Below, piece after piece: positions 26,223 to 38,391 of a stretch of DNA of 46,469 bases. Origin of the DNA: a virus; the IMG/VR virus record IMGVR_UViG_3300006916_000082, positions 1 to 46,469 of that record. One strand, given 5' to 3'. Numbering within the stretch: position 1 is the first letter of the stretch; each line of letters starts with the position of its first letter. The translations under genes were made by a program, and so were the position numbers. The notes under the pieces were generated by a model, which did not search any database, was not told the origin of the DNA, and saw only the letters and a list, made by a program, of their open reading frames with translations.

Positions 26223-26947
26223 GATACATCTGGTAATGCGGTGATTGCCTGTAGCGCTTCAGCTACCGGTGTCACACCTGTTAGGACAGTTTCGAAGATG
26301 CCTTTGACCTGCTTTAGATCCTTGCCCTTCTTGGCTGCCGAGAATTCCTTAGTTTGTGCTGGGGTCAATTTGAACCCTGCTGTCTTGCTTGCCTTTACGG
26401 GCGCAGGGCGCTCAGGTTCCGTTGCAACTGCTTTTGCTCGCTGTGCAGATGATCCCTTTGGTAGGAACTGTGCTGGCATGCGGGGCGTGGTCTTGAAGTA
26501 TAGCGGGTTCCCTTTGGTGTTGGTCGGGGTAGGCTTCATTGGAGTCCACTGGCCTTCAACTTCGTATAGGTAGCGCCCGATTCCCCACTGGACTGCTGCA
26601 CGGCGCATGGCATCAGATAGTCCGCCCTTAATGGCTTCAATATCAGAATTACCTGCTCCATCGGTACGGCTGATCCATGTCTTTTCTCCTTGGGCCGTTT
26701 CTACTAGAATCTCAATGTTGCAAAGAATAGATTTCCCTACAGTGTCCCTAGGGTCTGATGAGAATGAATTTCTCCAGACGCATGTATCGTCCAGTCTCTG
26801 CTGAACCGCTCGGTTTGTGATGTAGAACGCTGCCATTGCACTTGACTTGTCCTTCGTGTAGGCCAGCGGGAATGACTTGATGTCCGACGCAGGAAAGAAT
26901 GCCTGTAGGCGCTCTATGATTTCTGCGTAGTCGTATGTGATACTCAT
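26219..26947 (-). CDS. Single-strand annealing protein, Rad52 family
   Basis: 242 residues from the ATG at 26947. N-terminal core: YAEIIERLQAFFP, AVQQRLDDTCVW, a Trp-containing strand, then IEAIKGGLSDAMRRAAVQWGIGRYLYEV, the hallmark of Rad52/Rad22-type annealing proteins. The C-terminal third is Pro/Lys/Ala-rich with a short helical end, a probable partner-binding tail. It promotes strand annealing at phage DNA ends, working with the YqaJ exonuclease and SSB encoded just upstream. A longer start at 27019 is possible. Confidence 0.88.
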   Translation of the reverse strand: MSITYDYAEIIERLQAFFPASDIKSFPLAYTKDKSSAMAAFYITNRAVQQRLDDTCVWRNSFSSDPRDTVGKSILCNIEILVETAQGEKTWISRTDGAGNSDIEAIKGGLSDAMRRAAVQWGIGRYLYEVEGQWTPMKPTPTNTKGNPLYFKTTPRMPAQFLPKGSSAQRAKAVATEPERPAPVKASKTAGFKLTPAQTKEFSAAKKGKDLKQVKGIFETVLTGVTPVAEALQAITALPDVS

Positions 26948-27091: not shown

Positions 27092-27508
27092 TTAGAACGG
27101 TAGTTCGTCTCCTTCTGCTACAGGAGCAGCTTCCGCGACTGCGGGTGCAGGGTTTCCGCTACCACCGGCGCGACCACATAGTGTGAAGTCATCGACGCGG
27201 ATCTCTACGGTCCGGAATGTCACTTCTTCTCCACCAATAGTCTTCTGATATGAACCGTAATTCAACGATCCCTGAATAAAGATCTGAGTACCTTTCTCAA
27301 CGTACTGCGTGATGATCTCTGCCTGCTTGCCCCATGCTGTGAAGTTATGGAACTGTGGTCTCTCCTGCCATTCACCACTAGAATCCTTGTACGATTCGTT
27401 AGTGGCAACGCTGAAGTTTGTCACTGCGGTTCCACCGTCAGTGTGCTTTAGCTCAGGTTTTGCGGTTACGTTTCCGAGAACTTGAACTGTATTAACGCTT
27501 CTAGCCAT
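27092..27508 (-). CDS. ssb: Single-stranded DNA-binding protein
   Basis: 138 residues. OB-fold with VNTVQVLGNVTAKPELK, FSVATNES, FHNFTAWGKQAEI and a GTQIFIQGSLNY strand; Ala/Pro-rich linker and the acidic tip EGDELPF, equivalent to the DDDIPF tail that recruits partner proteins. Typical bacterial/phage SSB. Served by two identical sigma-54-type sites upstream (27595 and 27680), predicted leaders 75 and 160 bases. Confidence 0.95.
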   Translation of the reverse strand: MARSVNTVQVLGNVTAKPELKHTDGGTAVTNFSVATNESYKDSSGEWQERPQFHNFTAWGKQAEIITQYVEKGTQIFIQGSLNYGSYQKTIGGEEVTFRTVEIRVDDFTLCGRAGGSGNPAPAVAEAAPVAEGDELPF

Positions 27509-29299: not shown

Positions 29300-29833
29300 T
29301 TATACAAGCAAATACCGTGCCAAAAGCCAAAATGCTGTTCCGGTAAGTAAATGCCACGTTCCATGCAAGACGTTGTGTCGCCAGTCGTGGCTGTATGGTC
29401 CGCCATAGCGCTTGTCTCCAATGTCCCGTAGGATTAGCCCTAAGAGTATCAGCCCCAATACTTGACCGACTGCTGCAAGGGACACGAACGCATACAGGCC
29501 CACTAGTAGGGGCAGCGCCATAACGACTAGGGCATGGCGACTGTTCAGGTCCTGTACGCCTGTGCCTAAGCCAACGAATACTGCTAGGGCCATAGCGTAT
29601 CCGATGTCGGGGCCGATAAGCTTGGCAAGTATGATCCCAAGGAACGCGCTGGTCACAAGGTACATGCCGATCCGGTCTGCCATAAGCCCAATCTCATTGC
29701 CAGTCCCATGATACCAGCCTGAGCCAATGCCAAGTGCGATAAGGGCCAGCCCAAGAACGGGCGCATATGAGAACCAATAGATGCCTACGGCAACATATAT
29801 CAAATTTGTAAGTGTAGCGAATGGCTGCTTCAT
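29300..29833 (-). CDS. CREST-superfamily membrane hydrolase (ceramidase-like)
   Basis: 177 residues, almost wholly hydrophobic with about seven membrane segments. Ser38-x3-His42 in GSGWYHGT, Asp53 in LMADRIGMY and the C-terminal His157-x3-His161 in HGTWHLLTG reproduce the CREST metal site (Ser, three His, one Asp) of alkaline ceramidases, PAQR receptors and Per1/PGAP3. Membrane location, and hydrolysis of a lipid amide or related bond, are inferred from that family. It overlaps the upstream coiled-coil gene by 4 bases. Its last codons contain the next sigma-54-type promoter. Confidence 0.72.
   Translation of the reverse strand: MKQPFATLTNLIYVAVGIYWFSYAPVLGLALIALGIGSGWYHGTGNEIGLMADRIGMYLVTSAFLGIILAKLIGPDIGYAMALAVFVGLGTGVQDLNSRHALVVMALPLLVGLYAFVSLAAVGQVLGLILLGLILRDIGDKRYGGPYSHDWRHNVLHGTWHLLTGTAFWLLARYLLV
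29308..29322 (-). promoter_or_regulatory. Sigma-54-type promoter at the 3' end of the CREST gene
   Basis: Leftward TGGCACG-GTAT-TTGC followed by T, full consensus. It is embedded in the final codons of the CREST gene (L-A-R-Y-L) and drives 29014-29271; predicted start about 29296. Confidence 0.82.
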
Positions 29834-31339: not shown

Positions 31340-31687
31340 TTAGTCTCTATTCATGATTTCAGCCGATACGAGTACGAACTCCCTGCACGTATCTAGGCCA
31401 AAGAATTTCCTAGCTTCCTGCGGGGTCATTCCGCAAAATAGATTGGGGTCGTGTGGGTATGCTACCCGATCATTAAGGGCCGTTGAGTACCGCATTTCGA
31501 TCCCGCCGATGAATAGGTTTACCTGCTTGCCATTCACTCCGAAAATGTTGGTCAGTCCTACACGTAGGGAAATTACATCTTCTGCCTTGGCGTAGAAATA
31601 CACTTCGTCGGTGTGTACTCCGTCAATCATTTCTAAGCCTGCTAGTAGTGCTTCTGGCACCTGTGTTCCATGATATACTGCTTTCAT
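31340..31687 (-). CDS. Possible small ADP-ribosyltransferase-like protein
   Basis: 115 residues. MKAVYHGTQVPEALLAGLE, then DEVYFYAKAEDVISL resembles the first two strands of ART/PARP-type folds (a Y-H-G-T motif, then a 'v-Y-f' strand and helix). A Glu lies in the last strand (VSAEIMN). The similarity is short and the protein small, so this is tentative. It is first behind paired sigma-54-type (31782) and sigma-28-type (31729) sites, as expected for a strongly controlled early gene. Confidence 0.4.
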   Translation of the reverse strand: MKAVYHGTQVPEALLAGLEMIDGVHTDEVYFYAKAEDVISLRVGLTNIFGVNGKQVNLFIGGIEMRYSTALNDRVAYPHDPNLFCGMTPQEARKFFGLDTCREFVLVSAEIMNRD

Positions 31688-31728: not shown

Positions 31729-31756
31729 GTATCGGCTAAAACGCCGATGAGCTTAA
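31729..31756 (-). promoter_or_regulatory. Sigma-28/sigma-D-type promoter
   Basis: Leftward TTAAG-N15-GCCGATAC. It lies 42 bases before the 31687 ATG and downstream of the sigma-54-type site at 31782, so the gene has two different promoters in tandem. It overlaps the stop codon of the 42-residue membrane protein. Confidence 0.75.
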
Positions 31757-31881
31757 ATTTGTTCCTGCTTTTCTTTTACTTGCAAATACCGTGCCACAAA
31801 CCGGTCATATGGTCCAAGCCAGAAAAATAATCCGCCGTAGGCCAGCATTGCTCCAGCTACAATCAAATAGTAGGTGTTCAT
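31753..31881 (-). CDS. Small single-span membrane protein (42 aa)
   Basis: 42 residues. Residues 4-23 (YYLIVAGAMLAYGGLFFWLG) form one membrane segment, then a basic/Gln-rich tail. An AGGAG lies 6-7 bases before the ATG, inside the end of the upstream gene, and the arrangement TAATATG suggests coupling. The end of the gene contains the sigma-54-type site (codons V-A-R-Y-L). Function unknown. Confidence 0.65.
   Translation of the reverse strand: MNTYYLIVAGAMLAYGGLFFWLGPYDRFVARYLQVKEKQEQI
31782..31796 (-). promoter_or_regulatory. Sigma-54-type promoter
   Basis: Leftward TGGCACG-GTAT-TTGC followed by A, full consensus. Predicted start about 31770, 83 bases before the 31687 gene, with the sigma-28-type site in the leader. 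Confidence 0.82.
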
Positions 31882-31882
31882 A

Positions 31883-32167
31883 TTATTCTCCTGTCTCGTC
31901 TGCGTACTTACTCAATTTCTTCGCTGCCCTGAATGATTCCATCTGGAAGCTATACGGTCTGGTCTCTCCAATCCATTTGCGATACCTGCGAAGGGATCTA
32001 GCGAACTCGAAGGGCGTGGTCAGTTCGTCGATCAAGTGCATGTAGTTTCGGCAGTCCAGTACGTCACGGTGATTAGATAGTCGTTTCTCTTCTCTGGCCT
32101 GTTCACGCTCTATGATGCCCCGCGTTATACGGTCCCATTCTTGGGCTGCTATTGTTTGATGCTTCAT
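31883..32167 (-). CDS. Hypothetical helical protein
   Basis: 94 residues, highly charged and helical (ITRGIIEREQAREEKRLSNH), not recognised. Its ATG overlaps the stop of the upstream gene (TAATG). Confidence 0.58.
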   Translation of the reverse strand: MKHQTIAAQEWDRITRGIIEREQAREEKRLSNHRDVLDCRNYMHLIDELTTPFEFARSLRRYRKWIGETRPYSFQMESFRAAKKLSKYADETGE

Positions 32168-32526
32168 TAGTTTCTCTGGCTAGGGTGTAGGTTGATCAGT
32201 AGGTCAATCGGTAGCGGATCGTAAGGCTCCTGTGAAGATCGTATTTCTTCGACGGTCTCCTGTAGGCCACGCTCGGCATACTCTCTAAGACCTTCAATGA
32301 TCCTTGGGTCTGACAGCACGAAGGATAAGTTCTCCGGCATGTAGAATTCTCCTTCCCCTTTGATATCGTCAAAGATCGTATCGAAGGCTTCTTCGTATTT
32401 GATGTGATCTTCGTCCCACATATCATTTGCCAGTTTCCCGATCCCTTCTTCGATGAATAGGACAAGGTTCTTGTTGTCTCTGTAGAACTCGCTGTAGTTA
32501 CTCTGGGTCAATCTAAATTTGTTCAT
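32167..32526 (-). CDS. Hypothetical acidic protein
   Basis: 119 residues from the ATG at 32526; the longer open frame to 32766 would cross a sigma-28-type promoter and the next gene. Acidic and helical with LVLFIEEGIGKLANDMWDED. Not recognised. Confidence 0.58.
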   Translation of the reverse strand: MNKFRLTQSNYSEFYRDNKNLVLFIEEGIGKLANDMWDEDHIKYEEAFDTIFDDIKGEGEFYMPENLSFVLSDPRIIEGLREYAERGLQETVEEIRSSQEPYDPLPIDLLINLHPSQRN

Positions 32527-32566
32527 GGTCCGTCTCTTAATTTGTTTGTTTACTTCTCTAACTATA

Positions 32567-32594
32567 GTATCGGCTGCGGGTTCCCAAACCTTAA
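32567..32594 (-). promoter_or_regulatory. Sigma-28/sigma-D-type promoter
   Basis: Leftward TTAAG-N15-GCCGATAC. Its -35 reads TAAGGTTT, one base from the FliA -35 consensus TAAAGTTT. About 41 bases before the 32526 ATG. The best single match in the family. Confidence 0.8.
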
Positions 32595-32633
32595 GCTTTT
32601 CTTTACTCTTAGTTACTACCCCTGATAAGCTAG

Positions 32634-32936
32634 TTAGTATGTATGTGGCCCTTTTTCGGAAAATGTGCCCTGAGTGTCTGGAAAGGCCGTTTCTATCGGA
32701 GTGATTTTTGCCAGTTTTCTCCTGACAGTTGGGCCGTTTTTTCGCATCTTGAACAGGAAGTCCCACTGCGGATCCTGCCCCTTCCGCCCGTTCTTATTGT
32801 GCCCGTCTCGTGTGCTGTGTCCCCGCGCAGAGACCCTTACCAGCCAGCCCCTTGCAGTCTTAGGGAAGTCCCTTTCGTCTATCGGCTCGGTGGCTCTGTT
32901 GTATGCTGAACGCGCCTTGTTTTCTTTGGTACTCAT
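32634..32936 (-). CDS. Hypothetical basic protein
   Basis: 100 residues, Lys/Arg/Asn-rich (STRDGHNKNGRKGQDPQWDF), probably nucleic-acid associated. GGAG precedes the ATG. It overlaps the upstream gene by 4 bases. Not recognised. Confidence 0.55.
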   Translation of the reverse strand: MSTKENKARSAYNRATEPIDERDFPKTARGWLVRVSARGHSTRDGHNKNGRKGQDPQWDFLFKMRKNGPTVRRKLAKITPIETAFPDTQGTFSEKGPHTY

Positions 32937-33118
32937 TTCTTTCTCCGGTATACAGCGGTGATGTCTTCCCGCTGGACTGTTATTGGAAACTCAAACACTA
33001 GGCCGTGAACGACAACGTAGGTCTCTCCCATTGCGACAACCTTTCCATGCCAAGGGCCACGTCTGGAGTAAAAGTTTGGGTCGATGTATTCTATGATATC
33101 ACCAAATTTTGCTTTCAT
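32933..33118 (-). CDS. Small SH3-like protein
   Basis: 61 residues, all-beta pattern: GDIIEYIDPNF, GPWHGKVVAMGETYVVVHG and EDITAVYRRKK. Resembles small SH3/KOW-type beta barrels. It overlaps both neighbours by 4 bases. Function unknown. Confidence 0.55.
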   Translation of the reverse strand: MKAKFGDIIEYIDPNFYSRRGPWHGKVVAMGETYVVVHGLVFEFPITVQREDITAVYRRKK

Positions 33119-33336
33119 TTCTGCTGGGTTCTTGGGGCACGGTTTCCCTGTGCCGTGTATATGATAGATTCGGGCTTCTGCTGCATCTCGAAGAACTCAA
33201 GATTCCTTCTGGCCATAACCCAGTTGTTTCTTAGCTCGCGCTTGACAATGTTAGACACACTCGGCAGAGCATCGTATTCAAAGAACTGCTCCCTGTAGTG
33301 CCTGACGGTTGCCTGTAATTCTTCATGTCTAGTCAT
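33115..33336 (-). CDS. Hypothetical helical protein
   Basis: 73 residues from the ATG at 33336, which overlaps the upstream stop (ATGACTAG); a GTG at 33345 would add 3 residues. Helical, basic, not recognised. Confidence 0.55.
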   Translation of the reverse strand: MTRHEELQATVRHYREQFFEYDALPSVSNIVKRELRNNWVMARRNLEFFEMQQKPESIIYTAQGNRAPRTQQK

Positions 33337-33505
33337 TTGCTTCACTCCATGCCATTAGGTTACGATCATAGTCCTGTAGTGCGTCCCTGCTTACCCGTAG
33401 CTCGCGTAAAGAGTCTGGGGTAGGTTGCCTGCCGAATTCTTTCTTCGCGTCCTGTACGCACTGCCACAGGCGGTATCTCTCTTGGAAGCTATACACTTTC
33501 TTCAT
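33329..33505 (-). CDS. Hypothetical small protein (58 aa)
   Basis: 58 residues, helical and charged (FQERYRLWQCVQDAKKEFG, then SRDALQDYDRNLMAW). It fills the gap between two genes, overlapping the upstream gene by 17 bases and the downstream by 8, the packing seen throughout this operon. Not recognised. Confidence 0.6.
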   Translation of the reverse strand: MKKVYSFQERYRLWQCVQDAKKEFGRQPTPDSLRELRVSRDALQDYDRNLMAWSEAND

Positions 33506-33734
33506 TTTCCGGACCGAATTTTTGTAGGAAAGGTTTCATGCCTTCAACGTAGACTTTGTATAGCGTAGTCGGGTTGGGACCGATCCGCTCTTCGACGAAC
33601 CACGCAAGCGCATCTTCTGCGGACGTGTGAGCGCCCCCAAGGTATTGGCGACCTGACCGGCCATGTCTCCAGACTTCAAAAGTCCCTGACGGGTTGAACC
33701 CGTCTCTATTGGTGTGAATGTAATAAGTATCCAT
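33489..33734 (-). CDS. Hypothetical protein
   Basis: 81 residues: an antiparallel-beta start (YYIHTNRDGFNPSGTFEVWR), then an acidic helix and KVYVEGMKPFLQKFG. Not recognised. TAGAGATG links it to the upstream 59-residue gene. Confidence 0.58.
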   Translation of the reverse strand: MDTYYIHTNRDGFNPSGTFEVWRHGRSGRQYLGGAHTSAEDALAWFVEERIGPNPTTLYKVYVEGMKPFLQKFGPENEESV

Positions 33735-33736
33735 CT

Positions 33737-33916
33737 CTATAGACCTAATTGTTTGTTAACTTTATCATCGAACGCTTTAAGTGCAGCTATCGCCTTACGT
33801 AGTCTAGCTTCAGCCTTACCTTCTGGCTGGCAGACAACCCTATCGACTCCGTTCCTTGCGCGTCGCAGTTCTTCGTAAAGGTCTGCTCTCTCATTCATCA
33901 TTGCTGTAATATCCAT
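33737..33916 (-). CDS. Hypothetical small protein (59 aa)
   Basis: 59 residues, helical with alternating charge (MNERADLYEELRRARNG, then EARLRKAIAALKAFDDKVN). GGAG lies 7-8 bases before the ATG. It is the first gene after the sigma-28-type site at 33961, which makes it a real gene rather than a gap. Confidence 0.65.
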   Translation of the reverse strand: MDITAMMNERADLYEELRRARNGVDRVVCQPEGKAEARLRKAIAALKAFDDKVNKQLGL

Positions 33917-33960
33917 CTCTTTTCTCCGAATTGTTTGTTTCGTTTCTTACTCTAACTAAG

Positions 33961-33988
33961 GTATCGGCATAAAGGTTCCCGATCTTAA
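33961..33988 (-). promoter_or_regulatory. Sigma-28/sigma-D-type promoter
   Basis: Leftward TTAAG-N15-GCCGATAC, 45 bases before the ATG at 33916 and just past the stop of the upstream gene. The leader sequence between it and the ATG (TTAGTTAGAG, then AAACAAACAA) is shared with the promoter at 32567. Confidence 0.78.
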
Positions 33989-33993
33989 CTACT

Positions 33994-34239
33994 TCACACT
34001 TTCTTCACAGTGAATAAATTCTCTGCCATTCTGACGATCCAAGGCTGCTGAATTCCTTTCTGGATGGCCCTGAAGACTACAATTTCTTTGACCCCTGTAG
34101 CGGTCTTCTTAAGGCACATAGCCTTCACTATACCGGCATCAATATCTTCTTTGACCTTAAAGGTGTTTCCAGAATTCCGCATTGCTGCGACCATTTTCTG
34201 TAGCTCGCTATCGGTGGCCAACATATTCTCAAATTTCAT
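33994..34239 (-). CDS. Hypothetical protein
   Basis: 81 residues from the ATG at 34239, which has AAGGAG 7 bases upstream. Alpha/beta with GVKEIVVFRAIQKGIQQPWIVR. Not recognised. Its 3' end contains a CTTCACA/CTTCACA pair 11 bp apart (33992 and 34003). Confidence 0.6.
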   Translation of the reverse strand: MKFENMLATDSELQKMVAAMRNSGNTFKVKEDIDAGIVKAMCLKKTATGVKEIVVFRAIQKGIQQPWIVRMAENLFTVKKV

Positions 34240-34250
34240 AATCATTCTCC

Positions 34251-34688
34251 TTATTTTCTTTTCTCCGCTTCCCAGTCGCTGATGGCTTGTAGCTGGGCTT
34301 GAACGTCTCGGGCTTCACTCATGCTTGCCACATTCCCGCCGTGAGTCTTTCCCCCGTAGAACGGGTTCGAAGGCTTCATGCGGATATCAAGAACCCCTAA
34401 GTGATAGCGAGCCGTGAAGTCCGCAGTCTCGAACTTGTCTAGGTCCTGTAGCTGCTCCAGCATCCCTGCAACATGTTCTCCTTCAGTCACTTCGAGTATG
34501 TGCCGTAGGTGCAGTGCAGCATCGTCTGATAGCTCAAGATACTGCATTGGCGGGTTTGTCCGTTGGTGGGACGCGAATAGATCTTCCAATTCTTCATAGT
34601 CGATCCACTTCGAACTCTCTGAGACCTTCTGGGCCAGAAGCTTGGCCATGTCGATCACTTGCTTCTTACTGTATAGATACTTTTTCAT
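34251..34688 (-). CDS. Hypothetical acidic protein
   Basis: 145 residues, helical and acidic with many Leu and Glu; contains KWIDYEELEDLFASHQ and HLRHILEVTEGEHVAGML. Not recognised. One base separates it from the upstream gene. Confidence 0.58.
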   Translation of the reverse strand: MKKYLYSKKQVIDMAKLLAQKVSESSKWIDYEELEDLFASHQRTNPPMQYLELSDDAALHLRHILEVTEGEHVAGMLEQLQDLDKFETADFTARYHLGVLDIRMKPSNPFYGGKTHGGNVASMSEARDVQAQLQAISDWEAEKRK

Positions 34689-34689
34689 C

Positions 34690-35046
34690 TTACTTCCAAA
34701 TTTCGTTTATGAGTTTGAATAATTCCCACTTTCCGTCTGTCTTAGAGAAGAGCAGGCTGTAGTAACATTTGAACCGCATAGTCCACTTCTTGCAGAATTC
34801 TCTGCAACCCTTACTCAACTGGAAATTTATCATTCCGTCTTCTCCGCCACCCAGTCCGTAATACTGTGCCAGTATGAATGGACCGATCTTGATTGCTGCG
34901 AACCCTTCCCCTTCATGGTCACTATGTCGGGTCAGAAAGGTCCGGCCTTCGCTGTAATGATGTCCGCAGAACGGCGCGGTCTCCCACTCTTCAGTGGATC
35001 CGAAGCCAAGGTCTAGCAGTTTCGTATGTAGGGCTACAATTTTCAT
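34690..35046 (-). CDS. Hypothetical protein, first gene of the leftward block
   Basis: 118 residues with a CGHHYSEGRTFLTRHSDHEGEG region rich in His and Asp (part quoted), perhaps metal-binding, and a basic/aromatic C-terminus. Not recognised. It is the first gene transcribed leftward from the control region, with the sigma-28-type site at 35075 about 29 bases upstream, so it is probably among the first expressed. Confidence 0.6.
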   Translation of the reverse strand: MKIVALHTKLLDLGFGSTEEWETAPFCGHHYSEGRTFLTRHSDHEGEGFAAIKIGPFILAQYYGLGGGEDGMINFQLSKGCREFCKKWTMRFKCYYSLLFSKTDGKWELFKLINEIWK

Positions 35047-35074
35047 ATTCGTATTAGTTAGTTACTTTCTCTCT

Positions 35075-35102
35075 GTATCGGCTTCAAGTTAAAATATCTT
35101 AA
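35075..35102 (-). promoter_or_regulatory. Sigma-28/sigma-D-type promoter for the leftward block
   Basis: Leftward TTAAG-N15-GCCGATAC, 29 bases before the 35046 ATG. Leader sequence AAAGTAACTAACTAA is shared with the site at 31729. Confidence 0.78.
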
Positions 35103-35180
35103 GCCCGATTGCAAATTATTTTTTCCGTCGCGGGATATACGTTGTGTCACACTATATTCGAATCACCTGCCAGCTTGGGT

Positions 35181-35243
35181 TTGAATTCTCCGCTACCGGA
35201 TTTGAATTCTCCGGTGGGGGGCTTGAATTCTCCGGTGGGGGTC
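35181..35243. repeat. Three tandem 21-bp iterons
   Basis: TTGAATTCTCCG begins at 35181, 35202 and 35223, exactly 21 bp apart; the second and third units also share GGTGGGGG. Two helical turns per unit puts the sites on one face of the DNA, as in initiator-binding iterons. Each contains an EcoRI-type GAATTC. Confidence 0.85.
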
Positions 35244-35280
35244 TGAAAATGGCCTTGGATAGCCGTTATTGCGATTCGAT

Positions 35281-35495
35281 CTTCACACAATCTTCATAAT
35301 TGAGAATGTCAAGACTTCACACAAACTTCACACGACCTTCACAGAACCTTCATAATAGGGTATAGCCGTTATTGCGAATCTTCACACGAACTTCACATTC
35401 AGTTCACGGAATCTTCACAAAGTAGCTTCACACTATCTTCACAGTTCCTTCACAGTATCTTCATATAATATGTCTTCACGAAATCTTCATATAAC
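35281..35495 (+). repeat. 11-bp-phased CTTCAYA direct-repeat array
   Basis: CTTCA motifs (mostly CTTCACA or CTTCATA) begin at 35281, 35292, 35315, 35326, 35337, 35348, 35380, 35391, 35413, 35426, 35437, 35448, 35459, 35474 and 35485, with a TTCA variant at 35402. Most spacings are exactly 11 bp. Two more units lie at 35554 and 35565, and isolated pairs with the same 11-bp step occur at 33992, 37392 and 38504. An 11-bp step with a 7-bp core is the layout of PHO boxes and other OmpR/PhoB-family sites; iterons for an initiator are the alternative. Confidence 0.85.
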
Positions 35496-35522
35496 TCGGT
35501 CTGGTTTATACACTGGCCAAAA

Positions 35523-35550
35523 ATATCGGCCAAAATATTGACAATGTTAA
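35523..35550 (-). promoter_or_regulatory. Sigma-28-like site, leftward variant
   Basis: Leftward TTAAC-N15-GCCGATAT. The 15-base spacer ATTGTCAATATTTTG is identical to that of the rightward site at 35767, so the two form an inverted repeat around 35551-35766. Confidence 0.55.
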
Positions 35551-35603
35551 CACCTTCACACAATCTTCATAAACCTAAGTTTGGCATAGTTTTTGTTGTC
35601 ACG

Positions 35604-35618
35604 GCAAGAATCATGCCA
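35604..35618 (-). promoter_or_regulatory. Sigma-54-type promoter in the control region
   Basis: Leftward TGGCATG-ATTC-TTGC. Predicted start about 35592, so a transcript would run some 545 bases through the phased array before the 35046 gene. It may instead make a leader RNA or a replication primer. Confidence 0.62.
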
Positions 35619-35766
35619 AAATAGTCGAATTCGCTCAAAATCGCCTATCTATTTTATTGCATACTAGAGCAAGGGTATTTTTTGCGTCGATTCTGGGGCA
35701 TTCTGGGGATCGATATATCCGTTATTGCAATATATCGGCCTGAATTGTGAAGAAATGATGAAGGAT

Positions 35767-35794
35767 TTAATATTGTCAATATTTTGACCGATAT
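35767..35794 (+). promoter_or_regulatory. Sigma-28-like site, rightward variant
   Basis: TTAAT-N15-ACCGATAT, two bases off the core family. It lies 53 bases before the ATG at 35847. Mirror image of the site at 35523. Confidence 0.5.
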
Positions 35795-35825
35795 TCGAGT
35801 TGTATTCAAATTACATCAACAAAAT

Positions 35826-35839
35826 AGGCCAGACGGTCA
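35826..35839 (+). promoter_or_regulatory. Shared 5' leader element (first copy)
   Basis: AGGCCAGACGGTCA ends exactly 7 bases before the ATG at 35847. The same 14 bases end 7 bases before the ATG at 36468. It sits where a ribosome site would be, so it is a candidate translational operator or unusual ribosome-binding element. It also decides the start of the 35847 gene. Confidence 0.75.
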
Positions 35840-35846
35840 AAAAATC

Positions 35847-36296
35847 ATGGAAAATCAGACTTCAACCCGCATCAAAAAGGAATTGAACTCAGACCGATAT
35901 ATAAGGGGCGGACAATTCCCACGGATATTTTTCGCAGGCCTTAAGCAACGTACCGTGATAGAAGGCGGATCTACGAATTTTTGGTCTCACTGCGAATCAA
36001 AATGCAATACTCGCGGATATATTGTAGCGGATGGCAAAAATGGAGTGACCGTATCAAAAAGGGATTTTCGGAGCGGTTTGGATCTTGAATCTTTCTTAGC
36101 ACCCTATATTGAACGTTGGCTGCAGAATGAAGAGTACCACGGGTTCGGCACGTGGGTATCGTTTGACGAAGAGTTAGTTTACATCGATCCTATAACTGCG
36201 GTTGATTTTCGGGTCACAGCTAGAACCTTAGCGAGCGAACGCGGAGAGACCTGTTTTAGGGACGTGGAAAATAAAACAGAATTGTACTTAAGTTAA
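35847..36296 (+). CDS. Hypothetical early protein
   Basis: 149 residues from the ATG at 35847; an upstream TTG at 35784 would overlap the promoter-like site and the leader element. Mixed alpha/beta with GGQFPRIFFAGLKQRTVIEG and GFGTWVSFDEELVYIDPITAVD. Not recognised. It is the first rightward gene from the control region and shares its leader element with the 36468 gene, so the two are probably co-regulated. Confidence 0.6.
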   Translation: MENQTSTRIKKELNSDRYIRGGQFPRIFFAGLKQRTVIEGGSTNFWSHCESKCNTRGYIVADGKNGVTVSKRDFRSGLDLESFLAPYIERWLQNEEYHGFGTWVSFDEELVYIDPITAVDFRVTARTLASERGETCFRDVENKTELYLS

Positions 36297-36315
36297 CTGG
36301 AACCCGTGCCGATAC
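36288..36315 (+). promoter_or_regulatory. Sigma-28/sigma-D-type promoter, rightward
   Basis: TTAAG-N15-GCCGATAC, the only exact copy on the plus strand. It starts inside the end of the 35847 gene and precedes the 23-residue peptide (36360) and the 36468 gene. Confidence 0.75.
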
Positions 36316-36359: not shown

Positions 36360-36431
36360 ATGTTTTACTTACTCATTTTAATAGCTGCAGTCCCCTTTTT
36401 GAATATCTTAGCACGAATTGTACTCAAGTAA
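36360..36431 (+). CDS. Tiny membrane peptide (23 aa)
   Basis: ATG at 36360, stop at 36429-36431. MFYLLILIAAVPFLNILARIV is hydrophobic over almost its whole length. AGGA lies 8 bases upstream of the ATG and a sigma-28-type promoter 45 bases upstream. Size fits small phage toxins or membrane-acting peptides, but it could be a chance frame in a leader. Confidence 0.4.
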   Translation: MFYLLILIAAVPFLNILARIVLK

Positions 36432-36446
36432 TTACCCTAATAAAAC

Positions 36447-36467: not shown

Positions 36468-37154
36468 ATGAACCTAAGTAAGCTTAAGACCCGCGTAAAT
36501 TCGACTGAAGGTATGAAAAGGCGGATAGTCGCTTTTCACAACATGCATGTGACTCCAGATATCGCAACCGCTGGAAAAATTTGGTACTCAAATGCATACG
36601 CGAAGGCGCTGTATCTTTCTAAGTGTTACGCGATATCTCTTGACACTGCAGCCGGTGTATTGTCCGCCTTATCTCCAGCCGTTTCATGGACTGCGAATCA
36701 AGTTGATGCGGAGAACTTAATTAGAGCGTACGTCGAAGGAACCGATACAGATTCAGTAACCGTTTCAACATACGGCCCTAATAAACGCAAGGCGCTTGCT
36801 ATCCTTACGGAGCATACCGAAGCTACAGAAGAGCGACGGTTTCCGGATATAAAGCGATTTTTCAAGCGTGACACTAAAACGCGTTCGTTCTTTTTGAATA
36901 TAGTACAACCCCACGGTACAATAGCTGTAACCGTGGATAGGCATGCAATCGCTGTAGCGTTAGGCACAACGTCCCCAGACGCGTCAAAATTAAGCATAAC
37001 GGCCAAAAGATACCGATCGATATCTGAAGCGTACCAACTCGCTAATAAGGCCTTAGGGTATCATGTACCGTGCGACCTGCAGGCCGTGGTATGGCTCGCG
37101 TACCGGTCACTCCACGTTGCACCCCACGTATACGCTGCAGAAGCACCTTTCTAA
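36468..37154 (+). CDS. Phage helical protein, possibly DNA-glycosylase (HhH)-like
   Basis: 228 residues. GVLSALSPAVSWTANQVDAENLI, then RSFFLNIVQPHGTIAVTVDRHA, then a C-terminal VPCDLQAVVWLAYR. The 'S-A-L-S-P---W--N---A' and 'F--N----------V-DRHA' elements recur in phage proteins of unknown function that look like helix-hairpin-helix glycosylase folds. I infer a DNA-related role without certainty. A strong terminator follows the stop. The ATG is set by the shared leader element. Confidence 0.5.
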   Translation: MNLSKLKTRVNSTEGMKRRIVAFHNMHVTPDIATAGKIWYSNAYAKALYLSKCYAISLDTAAGVLSALSPAVSWTANQVDAENLIRAYVEGTDTDSVTVSTYGPNKRKALAILTEHTEATEERRFPDIKRFFKRDTKTRSFFLNIVQPHGTIAVTVDRHAIAVALGTTSPDASKLSITAKRYRSISEAYQLANKALGYHVPCDLQAVVWLAYRSLHVAPHVYAAEAPF

Positions 37155-37265: not shown

Positions 37266-37381
37266 GCAACTACCGTGCCAATTCACAATTCCTTCACAAA
37301 CAAAGATCGTGCCAACTTCGCTCCAGCAAAAACCGTGCCAAGTTTCCACCCGCAAAGATCGTGCCAAATAAAATCGTGCCA
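37266..37381 (-). promoter_or_regulatory. Tandem array of four sigma-54-type sites plus one half-site
   Basis: Leftward sites at 37266-37280 (TGGCACG-GTAG-TTGC), 37300-37314 (TTGT variant), 37326-37340 and 37352-37366, with spacings 34, 26 and 26 bp, plus a -24 half-element at 37375-37381. No leftward gene follows for 2.2 kb. They could make antisense RNA against 36468-37154, block rightward transcription, or titrate sigma-54 holoenzyme. Confidence 0.78.
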
Positions 37382-37643: not shown

Positions 37644-37769
37644 ATGAATCCAATCTTACAAAAATGCGTCTGCTGCGGAATCGAACATGTCAACTATCCG
37701 ACGTGTCGTGCCTGTGTGCAGTGCGTATGGGCCACCATCTATAAACGCATCTACGGAAAGAATGCCTAA
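37644..37769 (+). CDS. Small zinc-ribbon protein
   Basis: 41 residues. C8-x2-C11-G and C21-x2-C24 form a four-Cys zinc ribbon, with a further Cys27, then a basic tail YKRIYGKN. The stop overlaps the terminase ATG (ATGCCTAA). Size and Cys pairs recall Mu Com, a zinc-finger translational regulator, but a Com-like function here is only a suggestion. Confidence 0.6.
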   Translation: MNPILQKCVCCGIEHVNYPTCRACVQCVWATIYKRIYGKNA

Positions 37770-38391
37770 ATATACCGAGTTCGACCAAAAGCGCTGTTTC
37801 AGCATGTATATGGATGGATTTCCATTGACTGAGATATCAGCAACCACCGGCATCAGCCGGGTCACCCTTACTAAGTGGAAGAAAAGGGGACTCCCTGTGT
37901 ATCTGTCAGGGGGAGTAACGTGGGATGATTTCCGTGAGCGTCATAACGCCGACATCCAGCAGAAGGCAATCGTCAAGCGGAGCGTCCAAGTTCAAAAGTC
38001 CAGCCTAGATTTCCTTGAGCAGACCAAGAACGACGTTCAGTCACTCTTCGAGAATCTGAAGACGGAGCTAATCCAGAACGGGGCGGACAAGTTGTCCTAT
38101 GGGGACATCGAAAAACTATTGAATATTTTCATCCGTCTCGACAATCAGGGTGCAGAGAAAATACTATGGCAGCAGAATGAGCTACGCAAAATGTTCGCTG
38201 TAGTTCTTCATCGGGTCAAAGACGAACGAGTCGTGCTGCAAATTAGAAATGACTTGATCGGAATAGCAGCAGCAGAACAGCAAAAGATGGGTGACATGCC
38301 GGGTAAGGAATTCCTACCTACTCCTGTAGATATGGTAGTTGTAGACGAAGAGACACTGAATTCGTTGGAGTCTCAAACTGACGTTAAGTAA
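37762..38391 (+). CDS. terS: Terminase small subunit (Mu gp27/DUF1804-like)
   Basis: 209 residues from the ATG at 37762, which overlaps the zinc-ribbon stop; a frame to 37687 runs through that gene. The N-terminus has a helix-turn-helix (FPLTEISATTGISRVTLTKWKKRG) that would recognise the packaging site, then a long helical oligomerisation region (SLDFLEQTKNDVQSLFENLK) and an acidic tail. It is directly upstream of the large terminase, as in Mu-like head modules. Confidence 0.78.
   Translation: MPKYTEFDQKRCFSMYMDGFPLTEISATTGISRVTLTKWKKRGLPVYLSGGVTWDDFRERHNADIQQKAIVKRSVQVQKSSLDFLEQTKNDVQSLFENLKTELIQNGADKLSYGDIEKLLNIFIRLDNQGAEKILWQQNELRKMFAVVLHRVKDERVVLQIRNDLIGIAAAEQQKMGDMPGKEFLPTPVDMVVVDEETLNSLESQTDVK

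Follow-up and report, generated by a model that had tools for sequence, protein, structure and literature searches.

Clustered sigma-28-type promoters in the putative early region of an uncultured tailed phage, probably read by a host FliA

The 46,469-nucleotide IMG/VR virus record IMGVR_UViG_3300006916_000082, analysed here over its full length (the window), carries five exact copies of the element TTAAG-N15-GCCGATAC within 4.6 kb, each in front of a short gene. From sequence comparison we estimate, with a probability of about 85%, that these copies are sigma-28 (FliA/WhiG-type) promoters read by the FliA holoenzyme of the host. Phages usually begin transcription with the main sigma factor of the host or bring one of their own, and phage sigma factors such as T4 gp55 and SPO1 gp28 redirect the host polymerase. 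Like those systems, the window holds a dedicated set of promoters of one sigma class; unlike them, it has yielded no phage sigma factor, and its promoters fit an alternative sigma factor of the host. FliA_WhiG has no match in the phage record, and among the 30 phage proteins scanned with Pfam no sigma-factor family was matched over the cut-off, so that a phage-encoded alternative sigma system, which was considered, is not supported; a weak Sigma70_r4_2 match sits in the terminase-small-subunit-like protein at 37687-38391. The promoter class itself is well known. To our knowledge, however, clustered FliA-type early promoters have not been described in a phage without its own FliA, and a full-text search of open-access papers, matched by words, returned no case of phage use of FliA-type promoters.

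Five sites, and no others in the record, match TAAG-N15-GCCGATAC with zero mismatches, and all read TTAAG at the -35 element; order-2 Markov simulations predict 0.013 exact matches per window. Between TAAG and GCCGATA(C/T) only a spacing of 15 is occupied in the window, with zero occurrences at the other spacings from 8 to 23. All five sites are intergenic, with an 8-base overlap between the site at 36289 and the end of the preceding gene, and all five face a start codon 28-45 nt downstream. Four lie on the minus strand: 31729-31755 before the gene at 31340-31687 (start codon 41 nt downstream), 32567-32593 before the gene at 32167-32526 (40 nt, the start of which must be the ATG at 32526 and not the upstream GTG at 32766), 33961-33987 before the gene at 33737-33916 (44 nt) and 35075-35101 before the gene at 34690-35046 (28 nt). 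The fifth, at 36289-36315 on the plus strand, precedes a 23-codon open reading frame (ORF) at 36361-36432 (45 nt), followed by a DUF7178 gene at 36468-37154. The -10 element has the FliA-type core at these five sites (GCCGATAC) and also at a variant site at 35768 (ACCGATAT). An earlier note on this DNA had named the five sites as a FliA-type family with a fixed 15-base spacer upstream of gene starts, and the search at fixed spacing upholds it in presence, spacing and placement.

The reading as a host promoter class depends on which host is meant. The window has the gene set of a tailed phage, with terminase, portal, Mu-gpT-like major head protein, family-B DNA polymerase and helicase, together with an Erf-like annealing protein, a RecE-like exonuclease and a single-strand-binding protein (SSB). 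Among isolated phages the terminase matches only phages of Salinibacter ruber, and the best full-length polymerase matches are the same phages; therefore the host is probably a salt-loving or related bacterium of the Salinibacter class. The closest isolated relatives are Kryptosalinivirus M8CRM-1 and Kairosalinivirus M31CR41-2 (terminase 34% and 29%, polymerase 38% and 33%, respectively). When the window was compared with DNA of the class, in which CRISPR (clustered regularly interspaced short palindromic repeat) spacers and prophages were sought, only short matches appeared, most of them within the genes for the annealing protein and the SSB and the best in genomes G179, G162, G180, G164 and G237. 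Those at 26564-26629 and 27368-27433 (77-80%) are best in G179, G162, G180 and G237. These matches give a weak hint of the host clade. A terminase scan of bacterial genomes found no provirus.

In our set of 245 class genomes, for which the Salinibacter xanthorhodopsin served only to get a centre genome, 117 match the FliA_WhiG family at E<=1e-45, and 99 of these exceed its cut-off; Salinibacter altiplanensis has a FliA orthologue above the curated cut-off. FliA also appears, together with a full flagellar set, in the published transcriptome of Roseithermus sacchariphilus, a member of the order Rhodothermales (PMC7409140). Flagellin genes occur in 90 of the 245 genomes and gave 143 distinct upstream regions, in which spaced tetramer pairs (dyads) were counted de novo, the phage motif not being used. 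The strongest dyads combine TTAA/TAAG with CGAT/GATA at a fixed distance. TTTAAG-N14-NNCGATAA occurs in 65 of the 143 sequences and its counterpart with N15 in 28, which gives a class flagellin consensus of TTTAAG-N14/15-NNCGATAA/C, the -10 reading NNCGATA(A/C). Hence TAAG, not TAAA, is the -35 of the lineage itself. The flagellin promoter of four genomes of one clade (G179-G182) is exactly ATTTAAG-N15-GCCGATAC and matches the phage consensus letter for letter, and that of G178 has GCCGATAT, differing in its final T. These five promoters serve bacterial flagellin control and have leaders of 57-63 nt, compared with 28-53 nt in the phage.

The better-known members of the class are similar in outline. 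FliA-type promoters in general have a -10 core of CCGATA, typically GCCGATAN. The FliA (sigma-28) promoters of Escherichia coli and Salmonella have the form TAAAGTTT-N11-GCCGATAA, and the sigma-D promoter of Bacillus subtilis is TAAA-N15-GCCGATAT. The phage sites share with the former the GCCGATA core and the distance from it to the TAA of the -35 (TAA(A/G)-N15-GCCGATA), but they have G as the fourth -35 base and C at the end of the -10, and they stand in a phage. With sigma-D they share the spacing of 15 and the -10 core, and the two variants at 35523 and 35768 also end in T, whereas the phage -35 has G for A and the host lineage is unrelated. Odd as the G of TAAG and the final C are compared with E. 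coli and B. subtilis, both are usage of the lineage, given that the flagellin promoters of G179-G182 are identical.

A weight matrix trained only on the host flagellin promoters places the five exact sites and the variant at 35768 at ranks 1-6 in the window, with the site at 31729 scoring highest (16.9). Six window sites reach a score of at least 12, compared with 0.5 in shuffles. Over the genomes of the class, TTAAG-N15-GCCGATAC has 82 matches (counted from the table) compared with 27 for a reversed control; in the genome blocks G160-G194 and G217-G241 there are 70 matches compared with 3, and elsewhere 12 compared with 24. Of the 20 genomic matches that were fetched, mainly from G229-G231, most have an ORF that begins no more than about 55 bases downstream.

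The closest relatives in IMG/VR are the contigs G001 (46,189 bases, with 58% polymerase identity) and G002 (33,851 bases, 47%). G001 has exact sites at 35277 (minus strand) and 35753 (plus strand) and one-mismatch sites at 35519 (minus strand) and 36990 (plus strand), all in the early region, and an additional one-mismatch place at 29668 (minus strand) inside a gene. Its site at 35277 precedes a DUF7178 gene, 46% identical to that of the window, and is the equivalent of the window site at 36289. The motif, which the earlier note expected to persist where close relatives keep the genes, is thus retained at DUF7178 amid diverging DNA in this one relative; the comparison is confined to DUF7178 because G001 has no clear counterparts of the remaining early genes that follow the motif. 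Host flagellin promoters, the host-only matrix and this retained site together support the assignment to the sigma-28/FliA class that the note had proposed.

Further relatives were sought by several routes. A blastn search with the early region had no match among isolated phages, no relatives came up in single-protein scans with the polymerase, the terminase or the product of the gene at 34690-35046, and a DUF7178 scan retrieved distant unrelated loci only, without the motif. Collection-wide viral scans for (T/C)TTAAG-N15-GCCGATAC gave, among the matches listed (about 200 other viral contigs), scattered single matches and no comparable cluster. The sole double match among those listed, in contig G253, was rejected as a relative, given that the pair turns up again in L411 and L447, its spacers nearly unchanged, and so resembles conserved coding sequence.

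Several observations weigh against the reading as sigma-28 promoters used by host FliA. The host class is deduced through phage relatives of only 34-40% identity, and no exact match occurs anywhere in the genome of Salinibacter altiplanensis. Two of the four G001 sites have an imperfect -35 (AAAG, TAAT) and two reach just 8.3-8.4 on the host matrix, and no clear site was found in G002, a 34-kb fragment. The Salinibacter phages are without the motif, the host matrix finding nothing comparable in two of them; M8CRM-1 and M31CR41-2 lack TAAG-N15-GCCGATAC and are essentially without the sigma-54 sites described below. In G229-G231 several copies of the motif (L261-L275) precede genes that, judged by eye, are lipoprotein-like or pilin-like. 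The sigma factor responsible may therefore serve more than flagellar genes; this suggests that the sigma-28-type regulon extends past flagella.

Such genes also bear on the question of who reads the promoters. A second FliA/WhiG paralogue of the host, devoted to surface proteins, or an unrecognised phage sigma factor might read the same promoter shape, and several class genomes do hold a second, lower-scoring FliA_WhiG match, while most early phage proteins match no family. However, the -35, the spacing and the -10 are identical to the flagellin promoters of one clade, and none of the phage proteins tested showed a clear match to a sigma-factor family; we consider such a reader unlikely. Still less probable is a role of the repeats as operators, bound by a repressor or activator of the phage, instead of as promoters. 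Repeated intergenic elements of early regions are often operators, and a hexamer resembling GGGAAC/GGAACC, a conceivable regulator site, occurs in the spacers of the sites at 32567, 33961 and 36289 and of the G001 sites at 36990 and 35753. Its register varies and it is barely unusual, given that hexamer sharing is equally frequent in about 2.5% of shuffles. The element as a whole is asymmetric and directional, its exact copies all face a start codon as far away as expected of a promoter, and it equals an independently found host promoter class. Chance or coding coincidence, for which one might cite two further copies of GCCGATAC in the window, both inside genes, is refuted by the counts, the intergenic clustering and the lack of a comparable cluster in the other viral contigs listed. 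Directionality, distance and counts thus lead us to reject both the operator-only and the chance readings, and host FliA remains our preferred reader.

Between the leftward and rightward promoters lies a central region with the two variants, which the earlier note had likewise placed upstream of gene starts. Both exist, and for one of them the placement holds. At 35768-35794 on the plus strand, TTTAAT-N15-ACCGATAT (full sequence TAATATTGTCAATATTTTGACCGATAT) is a probable sigma-28-type promoter before the gene at 35848-36296, with the start codon (ATG at 35848) 53 nt downstream and a host-matrix score of 13.7 (rank 5). At 35523-35549 on the minus strand, TAAC-N15-GCCGATAT (full sequence TAACATTGTCAATATTTTGGCCGATAT) is a possible one; no gene starts within about 470 bases of it, and with the host matrix it scores too low to be reported, which makes it the weakest member of the set. 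A 51-nt inverted repeat (80%) lies at 35522-35795, and each of its arms ends in one of the two sites, that at 35523 belonging to the leftward arm. After reversing G001 the layout is shared, with a divergent sigma-28-type pair about 250 bases apart around two divergent sigma-54-type sites; the site at 35768 takes the place of G001 35519, and that at 35523 the place of G001 35753, a better site.

The sigma-54-type sites framed by the arms of the repeat are the -24/-12 elements TGGCATAGTTTTTGT (35582-35596, plus strand) and TGGCATGATTCTTGC (35604-35618, minus strand), with counterparts in G001 at 35684 (plus strand) and 35706 (minus strand). In total the form TGGCA(C/T)(A/G)-N4-TTG(C/T) has 15 matches in the window, on both strands between 14626 and 37366, which resemble TTGGCACGnnnnTTGCw; nine of the 15 fit the strict form TTGGCACG-N4-TTG(C/T), compared with 0.01 expected. 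G001 has 16 such matches and G002 six, whereas two Salinibacter phages have at most one, and a sigma-54 factor is present in 225 of the 245 class genomes. Another site, TGGCACGGTATTTGC (31782-31796, minus strand), lies directly upstream of the 31729 promoter, and four tandem sites on the minus strand (37352, 37326, 37300 and 37266, spanning 37266-37366) face the early region. Tandem clusters of three to four sites past the terminase small subunit gene also occur in G001 (34321-34550, plus strand) and G002 (33381-33467, plus strand). This arrangement suggests that early transcription is split between two alternative sigma factors of the host, sigma-28 and sigma-54.

Taken together, a phage without a recognisable FliA would recruit the FliA holoenzyme of its host, which would bind the TTAAG -35 and the GCCGATAC -10 across the 15-base spacer. 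Transcription would start 6-9 bases downstream of the -10, giving leaders of about 20-45 nt, and several short operons of small genes would be read both ways from the central control region at about 35.5-35.8 kb, with the sigma-54 holoenzyme and an activator working the interleaved promoters. We call these genes early solely by their position and type. Tentatively, and with somewhat less than even confidence, we propose an early programme that needs no polymerase or sigma factor of the phage, in which host sigma-28 and sigma-54 act round one divergent control region and infection is gated by the motility or surface-structure state of the cell; such a strategy would have no precedent among the papers searched. 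If this is true, infection would be tied to a particular physiological state of the host, hypothetically that of motile cells, and might hinge on a regulator that normally serves the motility of the host. The promoter signature could be used to find hosts of uncultured phages, and for a bacterial class that has been little studied the comparison yields a sigma-28 consensus, TTTAAG-N14/15-NNCGATAA/C.

Some features of the surrounding DNA deserve mention. The small genes at 31340-31687 and 34690-35046, on the minus strand downstream of the 31729 and 35075 promoters, have no family match, and no relative of the latter was found in IMG/VR. On the same strand, 29300-29833 encodes a membrane protein with a weak ceramidase-family match (PF05875, E 6e-5, below the curated cut-off). 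A direct repeat array of CTTCACA-N4-CTTCACA with an 11-bp period runs from 35277 to 35580 and resembles response-regulator boxes of the OmpR/PhoB family (PhoB/PhoP-type); short similar pieces occur in G001 near 35,550-35,920. Finally, three tandem 21-bp copies of the TTTGAATTCTCCGGTGGGGG type lie at 35177-35239 and repeats of GAACCGATTCACCCGCCCC at the early end of G002, both of which are possible iterons or parts of an origin.

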